A DNA stretch of 64,000 nt from contig CAJNOJ010000004.1 of assembly GCA_905250025.1 (NCBI GenBank), positions 248,001 through 312,000 on the forward strand. The letters are read 5' to 3'. A model generated the notes under the pieces. It worked only from the letters and a program-made list of their open reading frames with translations. It had not been told where the DNA came from and searched no databases. The stretch is from Adineta ricciae. Taxonomy: Eukaryota; Rotifera; Eurotatoria; Adinetida; Adinetidae. The number at the start of each line of letters is the position of its first letter. The first letter of the stretch is position 1. Shown here one piece after another: positions 22,317 to 55,086 of this stretch. Made by a program: the position numbers and the translations under genes.

Positions 22317-23093
22317 TTAAACACAGCATTGAATATCTTTTGGACCAGCGCAAAAGCCAGCAACTGATCGACCTTTACATGCGGACGTTGATATGCAAAC
22401 ACCTGTGGCACCATTGGCTGTACATTTTGGTGCGGTGGCAATAGCTGGACCGCAACCCAAGACGCCCTTTGCTTTTCCCCAATATTCTTCTCGATCAGCT
22501 TGTCCATTGGTTCCACCGTTGATTTTCTTTGTAATCATACGGAACGATTCCAATGTACCTTGATCAGCGAGAGCATTGAGTTTCTTTGTTGTCCAAAACC
22601 ACACACTTGTACGGAAACCGACTGTAGGGGTTTTGACCAAGTCAGGATTGCCAACAAGATCAAGACCTAAAGCTTTACCAGCGGCTGCATAGTTGGCTCG
22701 ACCAGTAAGTTGAATGGGACCACGACCTTTGAATCGTTTTCCGTCACCAGGCTGTGTATTGCCTAAATCTTGACGCCCTTCATATGCTGCACCTGATGCG
22801 ATCTCTTCCATGTAGACTAATTGGCCGGATTCGTGTGCTAATTGAGCTAAAAAGGCAGCTTGACGGTGACAAGTATTGATTGCACCTTCAACAAGAGCAT
22901 CGTTGATATTCTTCAAATATTCGGGATGCTTGCAACGAGGCATAATCGCTTTCAATTGATCAGCAGTGATTGCTTTAAATAGAAATTCAAGAACATGAGA
23001 TTTTTATTCTCATCAAACACCTATTCGAATATTACCTGCATTGGATTGTTGAGTCCAGATAGTGGCAATAGTGAAAATTAACAATGGTATCAT
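22317..23093 (-). CDS. GH19 chitinase with Cys-rich C-terminal tail
   Basis: Secreted endochitinase of glycoside hydrolase family 19. Exons 23093-23036 and 22972-22317 give 237 aa. A signal peptide (MIPLLIFTIATIWTQQSNA) leads into a catalytic domain with the general-acid Glu in AFLAQLAHESGQL and a second Glu in YMEEIASG. The family block KRFKGRGPIQLTGRANY and SVWFWTTKKLNAL follow. A small tail with six cysteines (GVCISTSACKGRSVAGFC ... CCV) may be a carbohydrate-binding or stabilising module (inference). GH19 is common in plants and bacteria but rare in animals, so horizontal acquisition is likely, with one intron sitting at the signal-peptide border. Roles could be digestion of fungi or defence. 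Confidence 0.85.
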
Positions 23094-23478: not shown

Positions 23479-25170
23479 CTAGTTTCCATCGACAGGTTTT
23501 AACCATCCATGATATCGAACGATTAAGCCAGTGAATTTATGTTTAATTTCTACATGAAAATAAAATTGACCGTTATCGTCGTATTCGTACGAATCACCGT
23601 TCGGTGCTAAAATGGAAGGCAATGGAATACCGAGAAAGCTCCAATTTCGAACAACTAGATGTAATTGCTTTGGTTGAATGACTAGTGCTAAACCAAATGT
23701 AAACGGGCCGAATCGTTCATCTAGTAATTTGTCGGACCGACTATGACCTACTGCTTGCCAACTCGAGAAAGACTTTCCAGCAAACGTTCGTGTCCATAAC
23801 TCTCCAGAGGAGTCAGGCCGAAATACAACTTCAACTGGTATGTCCTGCCCGGCGTCAGGAAATCCGACTATCATGGCGATCAGTCTCGACATCATACTAG
23901 TACCACGATCTACTTTTGCTATTCCCGCGACTTTAGTAGTAGATTTGAAGGAATGCATTTTTCGTATCGATTCAGGTAATTCGTACCATGCTTGATCAAG
24001 GAGTTTTTGATATAATGTCATAGATACGCTATCGAAATTTGTTGATGTACGTTGTCCGGTGATAATGTGATAGTGTCGAAATAAATTTTCGTAATCTTCC
24101 AGATCGAGATCTGGAACAGCGGCTCGCGCACCACTTTTCAGTTTTCGTCCATCTAGCGTTTGACTGATCAGAACACCAATGCCCATGACAGGAATAAAAG
24201 GGCCTCTGTCATCGTCGGCAATCAAATGCCAAGATCGTTCATGTTTTTGACCTTGTCGATCAACACCTTCAATAGATACAAACATACCACCACGATGTTC
24301 GCCCCAACGAACGATTTGTATTGCACGATGGAAAGCCGGTGCTAGTGGTTGTAAACTAGAAATTAATCGCCATCGTACCAACCAAGCTAGACTAGTTAAT
24401 AGTCGATGTAAGATTTCTGGTTCAGTACTTGCACCAATCCATATTGAATCAATGTCTGGCCATACATCTCGTAAAATATAATAGTCAGGTACGTCAACCA
24501 AAGCAAAACGACGATTACGAATAGGTAAATAACCTGGCGGACTTATTGTGTAGTGCATTGTTTCTGTTAGTCCATAACTTGATGTTAATTGTCCCTGACG
24601 TACTACAGGTATTCTCTGACCTGCATAACCTGTTATTGCCTGTATCACATTCAAACCAATATTAATATGTGGTGATGGTGCGATTCCGCCTTTGATAGAG
24701 TGTACTTTGAATAGTCCTTTGGCTAAATGTCGAGCAACTACAGCTGTTAAGAGTGGCACAGTGCTAACGCCAGATAGTACATAGATGTTTTTCGATTTTG
24801 CTTGTTCGTCGAATTGTTTAATATCTCGAACGAACTGTGAACTATCTGCAAGGTCGAGATAATTGGTCGACGTTGCCAAACATGCTTTAACAATTCGATA
24901 TGGATCATTGCCGTAGGATTGAAACGGACCGGCTGTATCGATGACTAAATTGGGTTGAATTGATCGTAAACGAGTTTCGACATCCAACTGATTTCGATCG
25001 AAGTAGAACGGAATTAGTTTTGCTAAGCTATTAGTTTGATCTCGACAAAATTTTTCCGCATTTTTCAATGATCGACCTGCGATTAATAATGTCAATTGAG
25101 ATTTATTGGACAATAACTGACACAACCGACTACCAAATGTCCCATAACCACCAATCAATAAAATTTTCAT
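23479..25170 (-). CDS. Saccharopine-dehydrogenase-like NAD(P)-binding protein with DUF4166-type C-terminus
   Basis: Intronless 563-aa gene. The N-terminus is a Rossmann fold (MKILLIGGYGTFGSRLCQLL, IAGRSLKNAEKF, VIDTAGPFQSYG, NYLDLADSSQFV) of the saccharopine dehydrogenase family. From about residue 380 a second domain follows (TLYQKLLDQAWYELPESIRK, VEVVFRPDSSGELWTRTFAG, FGPFTFGLALVIQPKQLHLV), matching the bacterial DUF4166 arrangement. This two-domain layout is known to me from bacteria rather than animals. With the absence of introns in an intron-rich neighbourhood, that suggests bacterial horizontal transfer (inference). The reaction is unknown; lysine metabolism should not be assumed. Confidence 0.75.
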   Translation of the reverse strand: MKILLIGGYGTFGSRLCQLLSNKSQLTLLIAGRSLKNAEKFCRDQTNSLAKLIPFYFDRNQLDVETRLRSIQPNLVIDTAGPFQSYGNDPYRIVKACLATSTNYLDLADSSQFVRDIKQFDEQAKSKNIYVLSGVSTVPLLTAVVARHLAKGLFKVHSIKGGIAPSPHINIGLNVIQAITGYAGQRIPVVRQGQLTSSYGLTETMHYTISPPGYLPIRNRRFALVDVPDYYILRDVWPDIDSIWIGASTEPEILHRLLTSLAWLVRWRLISSLQPLAPAFHRAIQIVRWGEHRGGMFVSIEGVDRQGQKHERSWHLIADDDRGPFIPVMGIGVLISQTLDGRKLKSGARAAVPDLDLEDYENLFRHYHIITGQRTSTNFDSVSMTLYQKLLDQAWYELPESIRKMHSFKSTTKVAGIAKVDRGTSMMSRLIAMIVGFPDAGQDIPVEVVFRPDSSGELWTRTFAGKSFSSWQAVGHSRSDKLLDERFGPFTFGLALVIQPKQLHLVVRNWSFLGIPLPSILAPNGDSYEYDDNGQFYFHVEIKHKFTGLIVRYHGWLKPVDGN

Positions 25171-26553: not shown

Positions 26554-29101
26554 TCATTGCTTGGCTTCGTCAACAACATTCGATGTAATTAATGACGCAG
26601 ATTTGTCTTCTTGAGCAATAGGAGGAGCGGGAGGAGCATTTGGTGAGCTTCGACACGGTTCGAATGGAATACTTTCGTTTTCATGATTAGGACTACTTGT
26701 CATTTGTTGCACATCCATTGATGATGGTTCATTGATGGAAGATGTCGACGGTTGAGTAGGTGTAAGGAACGAAGTTGAAGAAGATGATGAACTGGGAATG
26801 GACGACAACGTCACGTCTAAACAGAAGGAGTTCTCTTTCGATTCTGTAGGACATGAGAGATCAACGACTTACTCATTGAAGGATTTTCTTGTAATTGGAA
26901 CGTTGATGGCTTGGGTTGTAAATTAGTTGAAGCTGAGGGGGACAATGACGTTTGATCATCGTTCGCGAAATCGTCTTGCTCATCCTGCAAAAAAGAAAAT
27001 CGAATTCTATTAATCGAAAATTTTCACATTTTCAGAATACGTACATTTATTGCTGCTGAAGTAAATGTCATTACTGTTGATGGTTGTTCCGAGAGAAATC
27101 GTTGAGGTTGTTGAATAGCAGATGTTTGAGAAACATTATTCATAGACATCATACTAAACAAAAGTACTATCATAGATTTAATCAAACAAGCGACGAGTTT
27201 GTTTACCGAACAATGGTGTCTGGCTGTTGATCAGTTGGCGCAGGTGATGATTTCGGAGCGAATAATGTATTCAATCGACTTTGTTTATAAACAAGAAAAG
27301 CTTGTTCTAATTCATCGAACTGCTTGCGTTCCTTGCGCATTGCTGTCAGTGTTCGCGAATATTCCGTTTGCTGCTGAGATAAACGTGGCATTTCTTGTTC
27401 TTCTTCAGGTGTGCATAATGACTAGGAAAATACAAGAAAAAAGATAAATATGATAATGCGTGAATGCATGAAATTACTTGTTTCTGTTTCTTGAGAAGAA
27501 TATTTCGTTTTTTCTTGATATCTGCTAGATTTGTTTCATCTGCTTTGATTCTTAAACTGTTGATTTCTCGTCGTTGTTTCAACCATCGTGCGTAACGATC
27601 GAATTGTTCTTCATTGATGCCAGCATTATTATTCGTCAGATCATTGTCACGTCCAACACTGATTAATCCGCTTAATTCTGGTGGCGGTGATTGCTGATAC
27701 AATGGATGAGTAATTGCTTGTTGAAGGAGATGAACGGCATGGGCGAGACTTAATGGAGTTTGCTGGGCTACTGCCGTATTTGATGTTTTGCCGGTTCGTT
27801 CTACGGGCGTCCATTCCGTCAGCGGAGCCGATTGTTGTTGTTGTTGTTGCTGTTGTTGTTGTTTGTCTTTGAAATCTCTTTCGAGTAAATCTTCAAGTGA
27901 AATCGATGGATCAGCAGTAGTAGCTGCTATAAAATAACGGAAAAAATTATAAAAATGAACAAAGTAAACGTTTCGAAAACATTTGTTCTTCGATGCGTTT
28001 ATAGTTTAGATGAAATTGTCATGCTGAAGCGAAAATGACAACGAAAAAGAGTAGTTAGATTTGGTCCTTTGACGTAGCAATACGAGCAAATAGCTGTCTA
28101 AGTCGTTGGTCAATTTATGTTTTTATTACTTTCAACTCACCATCGCCATTAACGGCGATTGTCAAGATTGTCGAGTGTGAAAGTAAATCTGTGTGGTTTC
28201 TGCTTGATTTTAATACAGAATGAAAGAAATTTGACATACCCAGAAAGTGACTATCAGTTTGAGGATGTTGATTCATCGGCCATGCACATTTGATTTGAAT
28301 GGGCGCTTGAGTTAAATTGGTTTGTTGTTGTTCATGGGGTGACGATGCTAGGATCGATGAAATACGTTCAGCAACGATTTGCTGTTGTTCATGTTGAGGA
28401 ACACCAGCAGTGTTGATGACGTTCGTTGTCGCCGGCAAGAGATCATGATGATGCTGTTGTTGTGATGGATGATAGTGAGTGTATGAGGGTGGACCACGTA
28501 CGGCAGCAATGTTTAAGGTAGGTTGTTGTTGGTAATTCGACCATTCGTGTGATTGCTGTTGAACGTACGGATGATGAGTGGTAATCATGTGTTGAGCTTG
28601 AATTTTTGGTTGAGGCAAAGGTACAATTTGAACAGGTATCGAAGGTGGATGAGGCGTTGTAGGAAGGTCTTGAGGAATAACACCAGCACCGGAAACAACA
28701 TCATTGATTACTTCATCGATTTGCTCGAGAACATGCGGTGGAACAGCTAAAAGTTTAAGGGAAAATGTGAATGAGGATTGAAATTGAGTTTCTACATACA
28801 TTGTAATGGATCAGCTCTTCCTTTAGTTATATTGATTGATTCATTCAACGAATCATCGTGTACTTCCGACTTGATTTGTTGCTCATCGAACGATATTGAA
28901 TCATGCTTCACCAGCAATTGTTGAGGTGGTTTTTGCATCGATATCAGCCGTTTGTTTGGATCAGTAGGTGGTGATTGATGTCCACTTGTTGACAGTGTCA
29001 ATTGATGATGATGAACTGATGAAGGAGAAAATTGTGGAGACGGTTGAACAACAATCGTCGGCGAATGCTGTGGATGCGGATGATGCATCGATTGTGGCGG
29101 T

Positions 29102-29133
<32 letters not shown>

Positions 29134-30964
29134 TTGGGATGGGTAGGGTGACATATGTGGGTGTGGCGGCTGCTGTTGTTGCTGCTGCTGGATTACCATG
29201 GGATGTTGTTGTTGCTGTTGTGAATTAGGTGTCATTGGGCGATGATGTGGACTGAATTGTGGTGACACTTGATGATGTTGCTGCTGCATATGCTGATGTA
29301 CCGGGCTTTCTGGCTAAAAAGTCATGAGAGAAAGAGAAAATGAATAATTTCAAATGTGTTTTTGTCATACCATTCGTTGAAATACTTCCGTTGTACCTTG
29401 TTGTACAACAACCGTATGTTGTCCTTGTCCTTGTTGAGTATATTGCACGTAATGTGTTGGTTGTTGTTGTTGTTGTTGATTGGGTGGTGATGCAAAAATA
29501 AATCGTGTCGGTGGACCAGGTGCACCAGCTGAAGAAGGTGTTCGAACGAAATTGGATGCATCCTGTTGCGGAAATCGCGGCATGATCTGTTGTGGTCTTG
29601 GTGTCATTCCACGCGGTAATAATTGTGGTTGCTGCTGAGGCTGAGGTTTCATTTGATTTTGATTTGCATATGGCGATTGTTGCTGGTGATATGGAGATGT
29701 GTCATCCATAGGCGAAACATGATGGTAAGGTGTATTCGCGTCTGACGATGACGTCGATTTTCGAATAGGATTGTTACCTGGATTCGTAGTCGAATGAAGA
29801 ATAGGTGTTGATTCTGCTGATGATGTTTGATGAAGTACAGGCCGAGGTGTCGATGGTGCATACTCAAAATATGGTGAACTTTGAGATTGTTGTTGTGAAG
29901 GTGGGCCTTGCTGCTGCGGTGGAAAATTGAATCGTTGCGATGGAGGATATCCAACCGATGCAGATACAACAGTACCATATCTATCAAAAAGAGAATCGTC
30001 AGTGAATTACAGTGGATATCCATGGCTATATCTAGAGAACAATAGTTTACCCAGGCTGTTGTTGTTGTTGTTGTTGTTGCATCGGTGGTCTTTGTAGTTG
30101 TTGCTGTTGTGGTGGTTGTGTGGCATACGATTGAAGATGAAAAGGTGAAGCAGTGTTCGGTGTATTGGCCATCAAATTTCCACTACCAGGCGAATACATT
30201 TGTCTTGCTTGCTGATACATATGTGGTGCCGAATGATCTTGAAGTTCAGTTGGATGAAGAACAATAGTAGTGGCTTCGTTCGTAGTCGAGGACGAAGGCG
30301 TTGATGAACGACTTTCACTACCAGCTCTACCATCATTGTTATTGTCCTCAGGTTCACTTGATTGTTGCTTCGAAGAATTTTTTCGTTTAGTACCTTTGGA
30401 TGTTACAGATGATTGACTGCTGGTACTTTTCAATACACGTCGTTTCGTACGATTCAAACGTGCTTGTTGTGTATAGTTTTGTTTGGCGTCGGCAGGAACT
30501 TTTCGCCAGATCTTTTTCATCTGTTTGAACCGTTCGTTGAAATCTTAAGGGAGAAAATTTTCATTTTATTGAAAGTGAAAACAAAATACAGATAGGAAAA
30601 TCATAAATAATGAAATAATAAATATCCGTTTTCCCTAGATTTTACTCACACATAGATGTATAATGAAAGACTGGAAATGAATCAATATTGAAAAGGCAAG
30701 GTCACTGATAGATCAGTTATACTTACCAGGAAACTGTTGTTTCAAATCAGGATGATTAACATTGCAATAGAGCACGTTAGACATCGTTGCATTCGTACCC
30801 AATAATTCATCTTCGCGTGTTCGCTCCATCAAATTACTATGTTCGGCAGTAGATGAGCCAGATCGATCTTGTGTTGGCGTTGTACTCGCTGGTGTAGGTG
30901 GCGTAGCCGATGACATCAATGGCATACGTATCATGGTTTGTTGCTGAGGCCAGCTTTGTTGTTG

Positions 30965-30995
<31 letters not shown>

Positions 30996-33900
30996 TGGGG
31001 TAGTGGTGGCGGTGGTTGTTGTTGTTGCGACAGCATCATTTGATTTGCCTGTAGTGAGTGGTCATGAAATCTACGACAAGAGCACAAATGCAATTAATTA
31101 GATTTTTCAATGGTAGTTTTCTATGCGGTGTACATACTCTTGCTTTACAAGAAGTGTAGTATTGGTAATATTCGTTTGTGGTAAGATCGATGCTGTATTT
31201 GTTGTATGTAAACCTGTCGATTCCATCATTTCCCTGGCTAAATTGTTTATAATCTGTTTAGAATTGTCATTCACATTCGTTGCCATAACAACAAGATTTG
31301 ATGTCGGAGTAGCTAGCGGTACTTGAGAATTTCCTGCGTGATGAGACACTGAAGTAGACGTGATCATCGTCGTTTGATGAGATTGTATGACTTGAACAGA
31401 ATTATTTGAGTTCGATACCGAAGGATTTGGATTCGTCGGATTAGCATTATTGAGAAGATCGACAGCTACAGTAGAGATATCGTTTTGGCTCTAATTCATC
31501 AGCTAGAAAAATTCGTATTACCTTGTAATTCATTATGTGTTTCGGGATGTTCAATGAATTCGAGAAAATCTTCGATATCCGTAGGACCACCTGTAGAGAT
31601 CGTGAGTAAGTAATTTTTCAAAATGCAAATTCGATTATTGACTTACAAAGTGGTAACATGGGATCTTGTGTTGTCTTCGATGTATTCATCATATATTCGA
31701 CAAAATTACAAAATTCTTCATTGTCAAGAATAGCTTCTATCAAAAATGAAAAGAAAAGGAATGATTTTTCGAACACAATATCCTGTACATCACTTACGCA
31801 TATCATTTTCATCATCAGCAGCTACTGGAATCGGCGGTGGTTGAATTGAGCTAGACGGTGCTGTCACAGGGGCTGCAGGTGGCTGGCGTGGCTCTTCTTT
31901 TGCACCTAACGCTAATTTGGTTGCTCGTTTGATTACAAAACGATTGATTGTATCATGATCCAATTTGATCGTATATTCATTATTATTTGACGTATTCATA
32001 ACTGTTGTTTGATCATTTAATTGTAAAGGTGCGATAGGCATATTGTGCTGAGCCATGAGACGGCTCTTCTCGGCAAGGCCGCATCCGAAGAAAGCTTCTT
32101 GCATTTCTGGTGGCATGTGCTCTTCGAGAACGCTTTTCTTTTTCAATGGTCGACGATCACGTTTACGTTTGATTGTAGAAGACTCATCGTGAGCGTTATC
32201 ATCTTGACCAAGATCCGTTGCTGGTACATCTTGTCGACGACGTTGACCACGAATTTTCACATGAAAGCCACCAATACCTATTCAATAGATTCGCATGAAA
32301 TTCTCGACCTCCGTAATTACTATTCTTTTTCTTACCAGTGTAACCTTTCGCAGCTTTGGCCGTAGGTACTGTTGCTGTTGCTTTTTTCGTTCCTTCATCA
32401 TCACTCGTTCCACTGCCGCCACCAGTGACGCTATTTCCTAGCATCTCATCATCTTGAATTGAACTCGAATTATTTCTCTTTACTCCGCCCACAATGTAAT
32501 TTGCTTGGCCACCACGTTTCAATTTCGAATTGCCGGTCACAGCGATAGCAGCTGCCGCTTTTTTCGGCAATGGCTTTACACGAATGGACTTCAACTGTGA
32601 TAATCCAGTATCAGTGAGATATACACCTTCGTCTAGTTTAGTTGCCTTTGGTGTCGGTAGTTGTGGCTGAGATCCAATGGATTGATTCAATGCTGACAAG
32701 TTTGTTGCAACGACTAATAATGGTGCTTGATCTGATGGTGAAGAGGACTTTGGTGACGACAATGATGGCAGTGTTTCATTTGTAGATGTTAGCAGTGAAT
32801 TTGGTCGACATAATGAGCAAACGAAATCCCCCGTCGTTGATAAAGTTGAATCTTCTGATAAAATATGTTCACATGAACCATGTAACCACCGATCGCATAC
32901 AGTACATTGAACAATAAGGTCATCTGTACGATATGATTTTGAACAAAGTGGACAAATGACAAGTGAATGACAGGGCGCACATTCAGTATAATTATTTTCC
33001 CATAAACAACATGAACCTGACGGACCTGGATTCGTTGAGCCACATTTCTGACAGCGAACACACCTAGAAGAAGAAAGAAAAAGAATATATACAGATGTTT
33101 GTTTCTACACTTGAGGAAGAGTATAACCTTCCTAATGAACTGAAGGCCTCCGAAGAATGCAGAATGTGCGTCTACTATTCCTCACTAAAGGTAGAGAGCC
33201 ATCTATAGTTTAAGATTGTGCCCTCCATAGGATATGAGGTTATGGGTCAGATTCGAACGTTGAGCCTTCGTTTTTCAACGTTCTTAACGAATTCGATCAG
33301 ATTTTTTAGTCATCTTACCATTGACATTTCCAATTGCCTTTTGGAACTTGATCAAGTGGTGGTTGCAAACAATACGTATGATAAGATATATCGCAATCAT
33401 CGCATAGCAACAGACGAGACTCATCCGTCGGTTTTCCACAACCTTCACATACAGTACAATCTAAGCATCGCCAGCCTTGTTTCAGAATGACTTTTGATAG
33501 CTGAAAACCAGAGAAGTGTAGTTAGATAGTATCATTCATCAAAAATCTATCGAATTACTTTAATTGATCCGGCGCAATATGAATGGTAAGATTGACCACA
33601 TTGTGTACATGAAATAAGACGTCCTTCTTCGTCTAACCCAAAACTACCACAACTGACACACATATCTTGTCCCAGAGTATACAATTCATCTGATGCGCAC
33701 AACACCGTGACAGCATGATGTTCATCGTCATCACGTTTCACAGCTCCAACTGTATATGTGCTGCCTGTGCTTCCACCGCTCGTATTCAATAGATTCATTT
33801 GTATTGTTGCTGTTTCATCGACACTCTAATTTCATTGGAAAAACAAGAGGATATATGAGATTTTCATGAACAAAACAGATCTCACCGATGATTGTGTAGG

Positions 33901-35877
33901 AAGATCTTTTCGAATCTTTGGTGGTCGACCACGGCAACCAGTTCCAGTTGCTGTGCCAGTACGTGACTGATTACTAGTTGTTGGCTGAGTCGTTGCTGCC
34001 AACGAAGATTGAGGCGAAGATGCACGACGATGACCGTTATTCAATGCCTTGTAAGAAAACAATTCGCGTATGAAAGAGAACAGAGACTGATTGATGCTCA
34101 TACTCGTCTTGCACGTTTTTTACTAATTTCTCCACCGTAAGTACGATTTTCGAAAACCGGCTTTCCTTTACCAGATTTCTGACTTGTTTGCGTGCGCAAA
34201 GACTTCATTGGCTGCTGGAATACTGGTTGATCATCATCTTCTTGTTTAATAGGCAAACTCATGGTCGTTGCCATAGGTAAATCCATTGAGTGTTCTGACG
34301 ACTCATCTTTAATACTAGACAAAGATTCGAAAATCAGTGGAGCTTCTTGTTGTTGGCTGTTGGCTGTCGTCGGTGTGGTCATTTCGCTGCTATCACCACC
34401 ACCTGGCGTATATTCAAGTGAAGATTGTTGACTATAATCAATACTGCGACGTTTACGCGTCGATATACCACTTGCCGGCGAAGTTCCCGGTGAATTCTGT
34501 ACATTAAAAAAAAAACAACCGAATTGCACATAAATTTCCTGACGATGAAAACTTACACTTGATTTTTGTGATTTGCTAATAAATCTATTGATTTTCGACA
34601 CTGATGTCGATCGATAAATTTCCTTTTGATCATCGTCATCATCGCCTTCATCCATAGGTAAACTTGTGACTGACGATATTGAACATGTTCGACATATGTA
34701 AGCAGTATCATCATCGTAGTAGTCATCGTTGATTGAATGACATGATGAATGTATTCGTGTTTGACATGAATGGCATTGTCTGGTACTATGTTTCGAGAAA
34801 ATCTCATTTTGGCACAAAGAGCAAATTGTTTTCGTCGTCGGCGTCTTGTTTGTTAACGACAAACAACTTGAACAACTCCATCCGTCCTTCGGTATCGATT
34901 GGTTTCGTAAACAAAATGTATGATAACCTTTATCACAAACATTACACATAATCATTTCAGCGTCGTCGCCTGACTGTCGACACGTTTGACAAATTTTGCA
35001 GTCAGGACAACGCCAACCTGTTCGAACGACACGATTGGCTTCAAGCATCAGACATTCAGCATGATAATGTTTATCACAATTTGTACAAAATAGTTGTCCA
35101 CGAACGTCGCCTGGTTCTGAACATGCTTCACATGACGATGATTCCACACCGACTAGAAGATTTCGAAAATAATCTCCGAGAAGTGATTTCATGAATGACT
35201 TACACATGGATACAACGGAATCTAGATGTTCCGGACAGAGAAATGCCGATTGAGAATGAGAGAAGAAAGAACCAGATGACTGAGCACATGGTAAATGATA
35301 TTTCAATGAACAGGCTTCATTCCGACACGAAAGAGATGCGCCATAACGATCGCATATTGTACATTTCTACAGATCAGACAAAAGAAAATGTCAACACTCG
35401 TATAACAACGAATCCTCATTTGTCATATGATAATGACATTGATTTCTACCTGATTAGTAGCATTGATAACAGTCGTACGAATATGATTCTGATCGTTGAT
35501 TTTATCACCGTCTATTAATGACCATTTTAAACATCGCTCATGTACCCAAAAGTTCCCATTGGTTTGAACATCTGCTGGCGATCGAAAGCCAACGCTGAAT
35601 AATTCTGAATCAACTGGAACAATGATTTTTCCAGTTTCCAATATAAAATTATTTCGCTTATCGATAGGAATATCTCTGAATGAAGAAAAGCAAAGAAAGA
35701 AGTAGAGCGAATGTCGATCGAATTGAATTACTCTAGATTTCGAGATGTTGAAGTAATGATTGGCTGGGATTGTTCTGGAGGGGACTGGATTAAAATCAAA
35801 TCACCTTGCCCAAGACTACATTGTGACGGACAATTACAAAATAAACAGATTGGCATATGATTCGACGAAGAAGTCAT
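26554..35877 (-). CDS. KMT2C/D-type PHD/HMG protein lacking the SET half (Lpt/Cmi-like)
   Basis: Large multi-exon nuclear gene of about 20 exons. From ATG 35877 (an upstream in-frame ATG lies at 35928) it opens with the KMT2C/D extended PHD: CLFCNCPSQCSLGQGDLILI, GNFWVHERCLKW, CTICDRYGASLSC and YHLPCAQSSG. A PHD cluster follows (CEACSEPGDVRGQLFC, CQTCRQSGDDAEMIMC, CSLCQNEIFS, about 35130-34650) and a second cluster (CVSCGSFGLDEEGR, CEGCGKPTDESRLLLC, CPLCSKSYRTDDL, about 33700-32800). Then come PPEMQEAFFG (about 32090), an HMG box (LYCNVNHPDLKQQFPG plus FKQMKKIWRKVPADAKQNY, about 30790-30430) and long Gln-rich tracts. A coiled-coil region (RYARWLKQRREINSLRIK, about 27590-27250) is followed by a stop at 26554. 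No FYRN, FYRC or SET follows. By homology it would be a COMPASS-like H3K4 methylation complex subunit reading chromatin at enhancers; catalysis must come from another gene. Confidence 0.85.
27832..27861 (-). repeat. CAA/CAG repeat coding polyglutamine
   Basis: About ten glutamine codons inside the KMT2-like gene, one of several such tracts. Confidence 0.8.
29101..29220 (-). repeat. CAA/CAG repeat cluster coding Gln-rich sequence
   Basis: Three close Gln tracts (29101-29137, 29168-29190, about 29205-29220) separated by Pro/His/Ser in the KMT2-like gene. Mixed CAA and CAG codons; the complementary strand gives spurious Val/Ala-rich frames. Confidence 0.8.
30957..30995 (-). repeat. CAG/CAA repeat coding polyglutamine
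   Basis: Longest uninterrupted Gln tract, about 13 codons with a run of pure CAG, just upstream of the HMG-box coding part; related shorter tracts lie at 29459-29478 and 30058-30078. Confidence 0.8.
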
Positions 35878-35928: not shown

Positions 35929-36443
35929 TTACATATAATAGTGGTGGAAATTGAAATCATTCGAAATAACCACCCTAGAGCGAGAAAGAGAGAGAGAGAA
36001 CCATCAGAGGAGAGATCAATGTACCAAAGACACTTACACTGCTCATATGAGCCTCATCTATTTTTCATTTGCAGCAAAACAAAAAAAAACTGCTTTTAAA
36101 AGAAAATTAATAATAGAACAAGAGACAAGATCTAGAAGAAGAACAGAAAAATCATCCAAGCATACGATTAGTCGCATGTCGACAGAGAGATTCACCTAAG
36201 AAAACAAAGAAGAACGGCGGCCATTTTCCGACGTTTCTCCTTTGCTCCTGAACGAGGCGGAGGAGAGAAAGAACAACGACCAATGGTCAATAAACTTCCA
36301 CCAATGCACAGTCGATCAGCAACAGATGGCGCCAGTCGACAACCAATTCTCAGATTTTTCTGTAGATTCATTTATTGAAGTATACCAACAGGGAAAAAAC
36401 ACAGTTAGGTATATGAAAAGAAAAGTCTATCGATTGAACAGTA
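35929..36443. other. Intergenic, 515 bp
   Basis: Likely 5' flank of the KMT2-like gene, with GA-rich stretches around 35980-36000. Plus-strand frames here are low-complexity (Arg/Glu/Lys-rich from GA repeats) and were not called. Confidence 0.55.
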
Positions 36444-51300: not shown

Positions 51301-53082
51301 TCACTGAATCCATATTCGAATGTCAGTAACAATGTTTGTACTTCGACTAATTTGGCATGTTGATGATAAATTCTCTTTTAGCCATTCGATTAAAATATCT
51401 TGTTGCGATCCACTGGCGAATTCGTCTTCTTCCAAAGGATCGTTTGCTACTCGAACGATTAACGTACATAGATTAGGCAAATTGTCCACCAAATCAAGTA
51501 CATTTTCTTGATTTTCTACTTTTATCAATAGAGTTTTACATTGCATAGCCAATGATGATTGGGTAAGCTGCAGACATTGATCATGATCATAACAACGCCA
51601 GTCACCATTGATAGTAAATCCTTGTACATCCAGTTCTTCAACTGAACTACAAACTAACTCTTTTGATGGTGTTTCACAATTATCATTTAACCATATTCCA
51701 AAGAGTAATTTATTGAGACTAGTTGTTCGCTCAAGTAAGATTTGTAGTTGTGATTGGATTGTGTCACGATCTGTATCTGCTTTCGTGCTAATATACAGAG
51801 TCTTCAGTCGATCGAGTCTCGGAATGATGTCGAAGATTTGTTCATCATATGGAAACATTAGCGAAATATAGGTAATATTCGGAAAACGAAAGTGCGAAAG
51901 AAAAGAATCGATAAAAGACGTCGAATTGTAACGAATATGTCGAACGGTATTCACTGTTGAATATTCAGTATCATTTGGATCGGTCGATTTTGCTAGAATA
52001 CATTTGCCATCAGTATTGAAGTTGTTGAAAAGGTACGGTAAAGTAAAAATCTGAATATTATTCGCTTGTAGTTCTTCATCTGACGCGTACCAGTGATATT
52101 GAACAAACCAGCGACGTTCTTCGATCCAAAATTTTGTTCGAAATGTATCTAGCATCTCGTTCATCTGAGCTTCTTTGTCTACACAGTTCGGTGGTGGGAC
52201 TTTCATAATAAAAGCGAACGTTTTCAGATCAGGTAAATATTTTCGAAATATTTCTTCCCATTCATTTCCATCAACAAAACAGCGATATAATGATATAGTC
52301 AGATGTTGTAAACGAGGTAGGTTTTGTAAAAGAGTTTGCAAAATCGTTTTCTCACAATGAAATTCGAGTTTCAATCGCGTAATCGACAAAACTGGCGATG
52401 AAAATGTATATTCATCCAAACTTGCCTCTGCGAAAACTATCGAAAGTTGTTGGAGATTCGGTGTATGTTGACATAAACGACCCAGTAACACAAATGAACA
52501 TCTAGTATCTCTAATAGCTAAATATTGAAGTGATGTTGACACTACAGTTGGATTGGGAAAGAAGTTTTCGAAGGCAAAGCAGATGCCGAAGTAGCAATAG
52601 GTCAGCTTTGGTAAACTCCATATTTTATCGAAGAAGTCTGTACTTTCTTCCTCTGATAGTGCTATGTAGCATTCATAAAATTTTAAACGACAAAGGCAGG
52701 GAAGTGATGAGCATTGCGTCATGAGCTGCTGAAGTGTTTGTTTCAAATGAATGTGTGTGAGAGTAATGGATTGAAGATGTGTTAATTGATGAATTTGAAT
52801 CGGTAGAGAAAAGAAAAGGCGAGTCTGATCTGGTGTGCCATCGTCATCGGAGAGGCGGAGAGAAATGGTTTGATTTTGAATTAACGGAAGATAATTTTGA
52901 CAAATCTGATGGAATTCAGCTTTGGGCATCGATTGAAAGTTCAAATGAAATTTTCGAAATTGAACATGAAGTAATTGATCGAACCGGGTGTTTAATCGTT
53001 GAAATGCACGAAAAAGATCGGAAATTGATAGGTACTCGAATAAATGAAGCAAAAGTTCGGTAGGCAATAATTCCAAGAGCAT
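51301..53082 (-). CDS. F-box protein, paralogue A
   Basis: Single exon, 593 aa from ATG 53082 (MLLELLPTELLLHLFEYLSI). The N-terminal F-box binds Skp1 in SCF ubiquitin ligases. The rest is leucine-rich, irregular LRR-like sequence (LSITRLKLEFHCEKTILQTL, LPRLQHLTISLYRCFVDGNE) with a conserved FRTKFWIEERRWFVQYHWYA block. It ends DIRIWIQ, as the neighbour ends DIRLWIR. Tandem with paralogue B, 225 bp away in the same orientation. The target is unknown; fast divergence between copies suggests a recognition role (inference). Confidence 0.78.
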   Translation of the reverse strand: MLLELLPTELLLHLFEYLSISDLFRAFQRLNTRFDQLLHVQFRKFHLNFQSMPKAEFHQICQNYLPLIQNQTISLRLSDDDGTPDQTRLFFSLPIQIHQLTHLQSITLTHIHLKQTLQQLMTQCSSLPCLCRLKFYECYIALSEEESTDFFDKIWSLPKLTYCYFGICFAFENFFPNPTVVSTSLQYLAIRDTRCSFVLLGRLCQHTPNLQQLSIVFAEASLDEYTFSSPVLSITRLKLEFHCEKTILQTLLQNLPRLQHLTISLYRCFVDGNEWEEIFRKYLPDLKTFAFIMKVPPPNCVDKEAQMNEMLDTFRTKFWIEERRWFVQYHWYASDEELQANNIQIFTLPYLFNNFNTDGKCILAKSTDPNDTEYSTVNTVRHIRYNSTSFIDSFLSHFRFPNITYISLMFPYDEQIFDIIPRLDRLKTLYISTKADTDRDTIQSQLQILLERTTSLNKLLFGIWLNDNCETPSKELVCSSVEELDVQGFTINGDWRCYDHDQCLQLTQSSLAMQCKTLLIKVENQENVLDLVDNLPNLCTLIVRVANDPLEEDEFASGSQQDILIEWLKENLSSTCQISRSTNIVTDIRIWIQ

Positions 53083-53307
53083 CGTTAGCGAACTTTTCGA
53101 TTTCAAGCAAACGTGAATGTGTTATCGTGCAATTCTTTTTTTTTCTACAAAAGATAAGAACATCAAGATCGCTTTTTTCATTCGTGCCAAATCTAACAAA
53201 TGACATCGCACTCCAGTGTCGTATGTGATGTGTCAATATTTTCTCTTTCCTTCACTTCATATCGAATGATAAATCTTCTCAACTGAAGCAAATATTAGAA
53301 AATTTAT

Positions 53308-55086
53308 TTATCGAATCCATAATCGAATATCACCGATTCGATACGTATCTCTCGTAATCACACATGATCTAGGCACGCACTCTTTCAACCATTCGATCAA
53401 GTCATCGCGAGCCGATGATGATAAACTATTCTCCTGTGTCCATCGATCATTTTCACATCGAACGTTTAACGCTTGAAGACGTTGCATTTCTTTGACCAGA
53501 TTATATATGCATATACGGTTTTTGACTTTGATCAATAAAGTTTCACATTGAACTCCTAATGGTGAATGAATCAATTCAAGGCATTGCTTCTCGTCGAAAC
53601 AACGCCAGTTTTTACCGCAAATATATCCTTGAAAATTCAGTTTCCGTATTGTTTTATTCACAATATTCGTAAATAGCATTTCTAAACTCGTCGAACCCCA
53701 TGATCCAAAGCTTAATGTTGTCAAGTATTTTGCTCGATCTAATAATAATTGCAATTGCGATGGAATGCTACTCGTATCTTTATGCTTATTAATCGAGACA
53801 AATAATGAAACCAATCGATCGAGTTTCGGAATAACTAATAAGAATTGTTCGTTATAAGGTAATGATAATGACAGATGTTCGATATTCGAAAAGCGTATGC
53901 GAGACATGATGGAACTGGTGAAATGCGATGAGCCATAGCATAATTGATTCACTTGATCATAAGACCAGAAGCAATCATCCGATGCACATGTTGATTTCGC
54001 TAAGATACATCCTGTGTAGCTAAGAAACTCTTTGAACATATAAGGTAAAGTGAATAGATCAATGAAATCTAAACGATACTGTTCGTTGGATGCATACCAA
54101 TGGCATCGAACGAACCATCGATGTTCTTCGATCCAGAACTTTGTTCGGAACGAATCGAGTATCTCATTCATTTGCACTTCTCTCTCAGTATCCAATGTCG
54201 GTGAAAATCTCATTTTAAAACGAAATCTTTTCAAGTTAGGAAGGTAACTCGTGATCAATTCTTCCCATTGATATCCATTCATGTAAAGATTACATGTGTC
54301 TAAAGTTAAATGACATAGATTAGGAAGGTTTTGTAAAAGATATTTGAGAATATTCAATGAACAATCGAATGACAGTTTTAATCGTGTGATTGAAAGCATG
54401 GGTAATGGCATATTGTATTGATCAATGTAATCGATATAAGTAATGGATAGATATTCCAGGTTTGGTGTGGACTGAAGCAGAAGTATCAATGGATTTAAAT
54501 AGCAGGATATGTTCGGAATTGATAGAGATTTCATCGATTGGGAAACGATTGTTGGCGTTGGAAAATGGTTTCGGTTAGGAGAATGAATATCGAAGTAACA
54601 TTGAGTTAAGTTCGGTAAACTCCAAATTTGATTGTGCAAATGCTCAGCTGTTGAGTGATTGATTGATACTTGACAATTGATGATGGATAGGCTGGTGAGA
54701 AAGGATAGATGAGAACATTCGGTAAGAAGTTTATCTAGTAGATATGACGAATGAATATGCGATAAGGAAAGTGTTTGCAAAAAAGTGAAGTTTTGTAGAT
54801 GAAAACCATAGGAAATGAAGAGAGGAATTTGTTGAGGAGTATCATCATCGTTTGCGAGTTGAAGTGAACGAATTTGCTTGGCGAATAAAGGCAGATATTT
54901 GCGGCAAATGATATCGAAGTTTGTTTTGGATATTCCCTGAAAATTCAAGCGAATATCACGACAATAAATCAGAATGAGACTTTGAAAACGAAAGTTAAGA
55001 TTCTCAAATGCTTGAAATACATCCAGAATAGTCAAATAATCGAATAATTTCAAGAATAATTCATTGGGTAAGATTTCTAAGTTCAT
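53308..55086 (-). CDS. F-box protein, paralogue B
   Basis: Single exon, 592 aa, starting with the F-box MNLEILPNELFLKLFDYLTI. The layout is the same as paralogue A end to end: SLPNLTQCYFDIHSP, LSITRLKLSFDCSLNILKYL, DSFRTKFWIEEHRWFVRCHW, LEMLFTNIVNKTIRKLNFQG, C-terminal DIRLWIR. Length differs by one residue from A, so this is a tandem duplicate with many substitutions but no disabling change. Presumed substrate receptor of an SCF complex. Confidence 0.78.
   Translation of the reverse strand: MNLEILPNELFLKLFDYLTILDVFQAFENLNFRFQSLILIYCRDIRLNFQGISKTNFDIICRKYLPLFAKQIRSLQLANDDDTPQQIPLFISYGFHLQNFTFLQTLSLSHIHSSYLLDKLLTECSHLSFLTSLSIINCQVSINHSTAEHLHNQIWSLPNLTQCYFDIHSPNRNHFPTPTIVSQSMKSLSIPNISCYLNPLILLLQSTPNLEYLSITYIDYIDQYNMPLPMLSITRLKLSFDCSLNILKYLLQNLPNLCHLTLDTCNLYMNGYQWEELITSYLPNLKRFRFKMRFSPTLDTEREVQMNEILDSFRTKFWIEEHRWFVRCHWYASNEQYRLDFIDLFTLPYMFKEFLSYTGCILAKSTCASDDCFWSYDQVNQLCYGSSHFTSSIMSRIRFSNIEHLSLSLPYNEQFLLVIPKLDRLVSLFVSINKHKDTSSIPSQLQLLLDRAKYLTTLSFGSWGSTSLEMLFTNIVNKTIRKLNFQGYICGKNWRCFDEKQCLELIHSPLGVQCETLLIKVKNRICIYNLVKEMQRLQALNVRCENDRWTQENSLSSSARDDLIEWLKECVPRSCVITRDTYRIGDIRLWIR

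Follow-up and report, generated by a model that had tools for sequence, protein, structure and literature searches.

The PHD and HMG-box gene of the window and its neighbors

The window, a stretch of 64,000 nucleotides from the rotifer Adineta ricciae (C4:248001-312000), harbors on its minus strand a large gene whose coding sequence, joined by eye at GT-AG sites, is interrupted by 21 introns and retains an intact frame with one stop at its end. Its features are:

26554..35877, minus strand: probable coding sequence of the PHD/HMG half (Lpt/Cmi-like) of KMT2C/D, 22 exons, 2498 residues
34557..35675, minus strand: ePHD1 (extended PHD) and PHD1-3 cluster, exons 2-3 (Pfam; solved relatives KMT2C 2ysm and KMT2D 9atn)
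32336..33825, minus strand: PHD4-6 cluster, exons 6-8 (KMT2D 9yle_K, 239 bits; KMT2C 6mlc, 84.7 bits)
31798..32277, minus strand: PPEMQEAFFG segment, exon 9 (also present in C172N, described below)
30051..31070, minus strand: KMT2C-type HMG box, exons 13-14 (below the Pfam cutoff; solved match 2yuk)
27207..27926, minus strand: coiled coil, exons 18-19 (genome search with a query of 159 residues)
26554..26816, minus strand: last exon, with the stop ahead of any ePHD2, FYRN, FYRC or SET (gene model and genome domain search)
35975..36037, minus strand: possible 5' UTR intron (donor score 8.55, acceptor score 8.65; usable donors are common)
36217..36227, minus strand: AAAATGGCNNC, upstream of the gene and also upstream of C172N and C21C (one match in the window compared to 0.54 expected by chance)

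In the Pfam scan, residues 1-1131 of the protein contain an extended PHD and six PHD stretches, and for residues 1-817 the top five matches among solved structures are all KMT2C or KMT2D. The HMG box stays with 21.0 bits below the HMG_box cutoff of 25.4 in Pfam, and its comparison with solved structures identifies KMT2C (2yuk) at 64.7 bits, followed by HMGB1 at 20.8 bits. Two PHD clusters of the KMT2C/D type and a KMT2C-type HMG box are found in the same protein, together with the PPEMQEAFFG segment, which we regard as typical of KMT2C/D, and a coiled coil, which we take to be equivalent to that of KMT2C/D and whose query found two matches in the genome, both on C4. The intact model confirms the composition described in the sequence-only reading, which had recognized the extended PHD, both PHD clusters, the PPEMQEAFFG segment, the HMG box and the coiled coil from the letters of the DNA. 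No Pfam match was obtained for 378 residues from the last exons, and PDB searches with the coiled coil, the PPEMQEAFFG segment and the first 666 residues of C21C returned two matches at chance level (E values of 0.87 and 0.23) and otherwise none.

Beyond the stop, the next sizeable gene on the minus strand follows at a distance of 1.4 kb. Just downstream of the KMT2 gene, a frame of 563 residues (23479-25170, minus strand) combines a saccharopine-dehydrogenase NADP-binding domain with DUF4166, and a horizontal acquisition of this gene is possible. A further gene (22317-23003, minus strand; 66.3 bits in Pfam) is of the GH19 chitinase type, and bdelloid genes of this type frequently derive from foreign sources. 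On the other side of the KMT2 gene, two adjoining frames of 601 and 592 residues (51301-55086, minus strand) are similar by eye, the first of them showing an F-box-like match of 21.1 bits, which is under the cutoff of 24.3.

Genes with FYRN, FYRC and SET on other contigs

Profile searches covered the genome with its 130.46 Mb in 1033 contigs, with matches reported up to an E value of 0.001 for SET and of 0.01 for FYRN and FYRC, and the resulting counts are lower bounds. Among the matches listed, which comprise at least 69 SET, at least 6 FYRN and at least 6 FYRC domains, none is located on C4, a contig of 1.27 Mb that extends far past the window on both sides. The ePHD2-FYRN-FYRC-SET part is absent from the window gene at the DNA level, in agreement with the earlier claim that this gene would stop at 26554, with no SET exons in the next minus-strand genes down to 16.8 kb. 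Among the matches listed, four contigs (C172, C21, C125 and C60) combine FYRN, FYRC and SET, and on two of these the catalytic half was found elsewhere in the genome, as the sequence-only reading had anticipated, in KMT2C/D-type genes containing ePHD2, FYRN, FYRC and SET. The genes on these two contigs are:

C21:335503..331067: C21C, 15 exons, 1226 residues, intact; ePHD2-FYRN-FYRC-SET without PHD clusters
C172:202861..197166: C172C, 14 exons, 1655 residues, intact; ePHD2-FYRN-FYRC-SET
C172:207292..203403: C172N, 17 exons, 1007 residues, intact; PHD4-6 and PPEMQEAFFG segment

In C21C and C172C, the extended PHD, FYRN, FYRC and SET all exceed their Pfam cutoffs (for C172C in a scan of its last 936 residues). 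The last 567 residues of C172C match KMT2D with 666 bits and the last 561 residues of C21C with 636 bits, and in comparisons with SET structures the ends of both proteins score 245-286 bits with KMT2C/D and at most 148.2 bits with KMT2A/B. The ePHD-FYRN-FYRC-SET part of both proteins is closer to KMT2C/D than to KMT2A/B. Both retain NHSC(E/D)PN, YDYKFDFE, GCARSEPK and the post-SET cysteines, where GCARSEPK is located at the place at which the Win motif would be expected. An in-frame stop is found 33 nt ahead of the ATG of C21C.

C172N is located upstream of C172C on the same strand and in the ancestral order, with 541 bp between its stop and the ATG of C172C. Its PHD4-6 cluster matches KMT2D with 249 bits, compared to 239 bits for the gene on C4. 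No extended PHD or HMG box was detected in C172N by Pfam, and no coiled coil by the genome search. Residues 1-1131 of the window protein, used as query against the genome, found strong matches only on C4 and C172 (35 matches, with scores for 41 of 46 candidates), and the best remaining row, from other PHD-like genes, reached 45.8 bits. PHD clusters and SET are not combined in a single polypeptide on C4 and C21, and such a combination is unlikely on C172. The separate full-length KMT2C/D that the earlier reading had considered as an alternative was not encountered as an uninterrupted gene, and a fused gene on C172 is disfavored for reasons described below.

The two other contigs contain, at C60:198255-200158 (plus strand) and C125:117889-120700 (minus strand), a collinear duplicated and diverged pair with PHD, ePHD, FYRN, FYRC and SET. 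FYRN and FYRC on C60 are about 650 bp apart, a spacing that is a mark of KMT2A/B, and the identity of the pair to C172C amounts to 24-43%. In light of this spacing and of the low identity to C172C, the pair is probably of the KMT2A/B (trx) type. One reading frame of C60, a poorly chosen piece, gave no match in either the PDB or Pfam. Beside the SET gene on C60 (194247-195310, minus strand), frames on the opposite strand contain protein stretches that are 89-100% identical in C125, a conservation between duplicates above that of most neighbors.

Relations among the copies

On matching reading frames, a difference between the SET genes of C172 and C21 is seen at 85 of 155 four-fold sites (0.548), and over the whole aligned genes at 171 of 297 sites (0.576). 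The C60/C125 block, counted likewise with its neighboring genes included, shows differences at 302 of 533 sites (0.567). By these figures, the two pairs appear to have been duplicated at about the same time. A dN of 0.20 and a dS of 1.93 between C172C and C21C (1134 of 1225 aligned codons, with poorly aligned stretches dropped) point to constraint. The window gene and C172N differ at 19 of 25 four-fold sites on matching reading frames and, with 479 of 955 codons kept, at 64 of 99 sites (0.646), a level that compared to a random expectation of about 0.70 is too saturated for their relation to be dated.

C21C and C172N each have as neighbor a divergently oriented gene in which a weak PHD-like match was detected, its two copies differing at 12 of 24 four-fold sites, and on C21 about 0.9 kb separate the ATG of C21C from the first matching frame of this neighbor. 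The 5' flank of C21C (C21:335675-335595) aligns over 80 bp with the flank of C172N (C172:207922-207842) at a score of 46, which is reached by none of 300 dinucleotide shuffles (highest score 35) and none of 200 plain shuffles. No alignment was obtained between the same flank and the gap separating C172N from C172C, where 128 of 300 dinucleotide and 57 of 200 plain shuffles reach the score. Because the flank of C21C matches that of C172N and not the gap, the simplest reading is that C21C arose by loss of the PHD half that had stood behind the original 5' flank, which would have brought the promoter region next to the SET half.

Equivalent comparisons for the locus on C4 remained without alignment for its upstream region with that of C172N (91 of 300 shuffles reach the score) and with the C172 gap (221 of 300), and for its downstream region with the 5' region of C21C (56 of 200). 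Those of its upstream region with that of C21 (7 of 300) and of its downstream region with the C172 gap and the 5' region of C172C (13 of 200) stayed weak. We detected no locus syntenic with that on C4. A Kv-channel neighbor of the window gene was dropped as synteny marker owing to its many paralogues, and C53, which carries the nearest SDR relative, was rejected as syntenic, as it contains no other matching neighbor within 10.5 kb and no KMT2 match.

A probable split of KMT2C/D and its possible origins

The described properties support a split of KMT2C/D at the window locus. In the explanation that we favor, with a probability of about 0.82, the window gene is the histone-reading half of this enzyme, the Trr-like half comes from separate genes on C21 and C172, and the copies have kept complementary parts. 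The window gene would accordingly encode an Lpt/Cmi-like protein, and the H3K4-methylating half would be supplied by the genes on C21 and C172. Provided that both are expressed, the two proteins would probably meet in one COMPASS-like complex, where the window protein would read chromatin through its PHD and HMG domains, and H3K4 would be methylated by the FYR-SET protein, whose Win-like motif and SET/post-SET region are intact. Concerning the distribution of parts, the window copy would have retained the head, C21 the tail behind its apparent original 5' flank, and C172 a reduced head and the tail next to each other.

In Drosophila, Lpt/Cmi and Trr are separate proteins according to the accessible parts of the published descriptions, which bears out the parallel drawn in the sequence-only reading. 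As in the rotifer, genes for the PHD clusters and the FYR-SET part are separate, with the window gene resembling Lpt/Cmi and C21C and C172C resembling Trr. In contrast to the fly, the rotifer contains two SET genes and, beside one of them, a second, reduced PHD gene. The window protein shows a coiled coil after its HMG box, which may further set it apart from the fly protein. In planarians, LPT, trr-1 and trr-2 are described as separate proteins in the accessible text, and the presence of one LPT-like gene (Smed-LPT) and of two Trr-like genes with PHD-like domain, FYRN, FYRC and SET corresponds to our case, a parallel that the sequence-only reading does not draw. In planarians, the phenotype of LPT knockdown matches that of a double knockdown of trr-1 and trr-2. 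Unlike the window protein, planarian LPT is described as having two PHD fingers plus a PHD-like domain, and an adjacent pair is not mentioned in that part of the source. Mammalian KMT2C and KMT2D share the order of domains and provide the closest solved structures for the PHD clusters, the HMG box and the ePHD-FYR-SET part, but they constitute one polypeptide, whereas the rotifer halves are separate genes.

The planarian proteins are also in line with an old fission that is common to flatworms rather than a rotifer event, which would be compatible with the explanation favored here. The agreement of C172C and C21C at seven of the nine first bases after the ATG would fit a start that predates their duplication, although this likeness was chosen after being seen, and the continued adjacency of C172N and C172C is instead what would be expected after a recent break. 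We consider an old fission possible, though less likely than not.

A potential route for the separation is suggested by the arrangement on C172. The TGA of C172N resides within the exon matching exon 17 of the window gene, which on C4 is followed by an intron of 313 nt, and the gap to C172C (203402-202862, 541 bp) has a G+C content of 32%. An acceptor scoring 9.93 is located at 202960, 99 nt upstream of the ATG of C172C, and one scoring 11.3 is found 56 nt upstream of the ATG of C21C, and among 3000 stretches of 150 nt drawn at random from the window, 3.3% contain an acceptor of at least 9.9. Both could be acceptors for the spliced leader (SL) or mark where introns of the 5' UTR end. Three usable donors precede the acceptor at 202960, and since at least one is found upstream of 84% of random positions, the argument from an orphan acceptor for SL trans-splicing is non-discriminating. 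Likewise, the absence of AATAAA and ATTAAA from the C172 gap is uninformative, as neither is present in the 600 bp that follow C172C and C21C. The rotifer spliced leader, as printed in the accessible part of PMC3795323, matches 41 places of the genome with one mismatch at its first base (reversed control, 0), and at the six loci looked at, all 10 rows, some of which represent one copy covered by overlapping loci, run directly into a GTAAA donor. These SL matches and the collinear, diverged C60/C125 pair are in keeping with a bdelloid rotifer. The SL genes on C6, C8, C43, C77, C79, C99 and C146 are clustered, mostly as divergent pairs, many of them about 150 bp apart.

It is conceivable, if rather doubtful, that the ancestral KMT2C/D was cut in place on C172. 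The head would stop in the exon ahead of the former intron 17, the SET half would have become a second cistron freed by SL trans-splicing at 202960, and the halves would have been sorted after genome duplication, with the head going to the window copy and the tail to C21. If true, this would imply a rotifer operon and a gene fission enabled by trans-splicing. Operons had not been reported in rotifers as of 2021, according to the accessible part of PMC7986045.

It is rather improbable that C172 continues to make one fused KMT2C/D ranging from PHD4-6 to SET, with the window and C21 genes as partial copies that each miss one end, in which case the fission would concern these copies and leave the main gene unaffected. 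C172N and C172C adjoin on one strand in the order of the ancestor, and phase-1 donors at 203621 (score 5.54) and 203645 (3.97) could be joined in frame to an acceptor at 202848, 202758 or 202668. However, these acceptors score 0.44-1.01 (scanned to 202600), compared to a 5% mark of 1.89 and a lowest value of 0.45 in 64 mapped introns, and acceptable donors would require an intron of at least 772 nt, whereas the mapped ones span 44-313 nt. The weak donor at 203432 (1.59, with a 5% donor mark of 3.86) would need an intron of 583 nt, and after the strong acceptor at 202960 a stop precedes the ATG of C172C in all three phases. Even if fused, the product would be devoid of the PHD1 cluster, the HMG box and the coiled coil, which are found only in the window gene. 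Judged by these splice sites, C172N and C172C are most likely two adjacent genes and not one fused gene. Finally, that the window gene would be a decaying or mis-assembled piece of a longer gene, with which the lack of Pfam matches in the 378 residues from its last exons would agree, is highly improbable in light of its clean frame of 2498 residues with 21 GT-AG introns, the conservation of zinc-finger segments and HMG box, and the long flanks on both sides of the window within the 1.27 Mb of C4, where no SET, FYRN or FYRC is found among the matches listed.

For Adineta vaga, the Trx-G/Ash1/Set1/MLL, SETD2 and SETD8 types of SET protein are described as quartet or pair, with no split mentioned in the accessible part of PMC8885841. 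Among the open-licence papers listed, none had a title that refers to a rotifer with a split KMT2C/D, which is weak evidence of novelty. The kind of split is already known, and what seems new is its occurrence in a rotifer, the copy with both halves adjacent and the complementary losses of head and tail. One published abstract describes KMT2C and KMT2D as the members of their family that are most frequently mutated in cancers. A further lineage in which the reading and writing halves are apart would offer a test of whether their covalent link matters. The presence of head-only, tail-only and side-by-side copies in one genome could show how a large enzyme comes apart, for which SL trans-splicing would provide a concrete and testable route.
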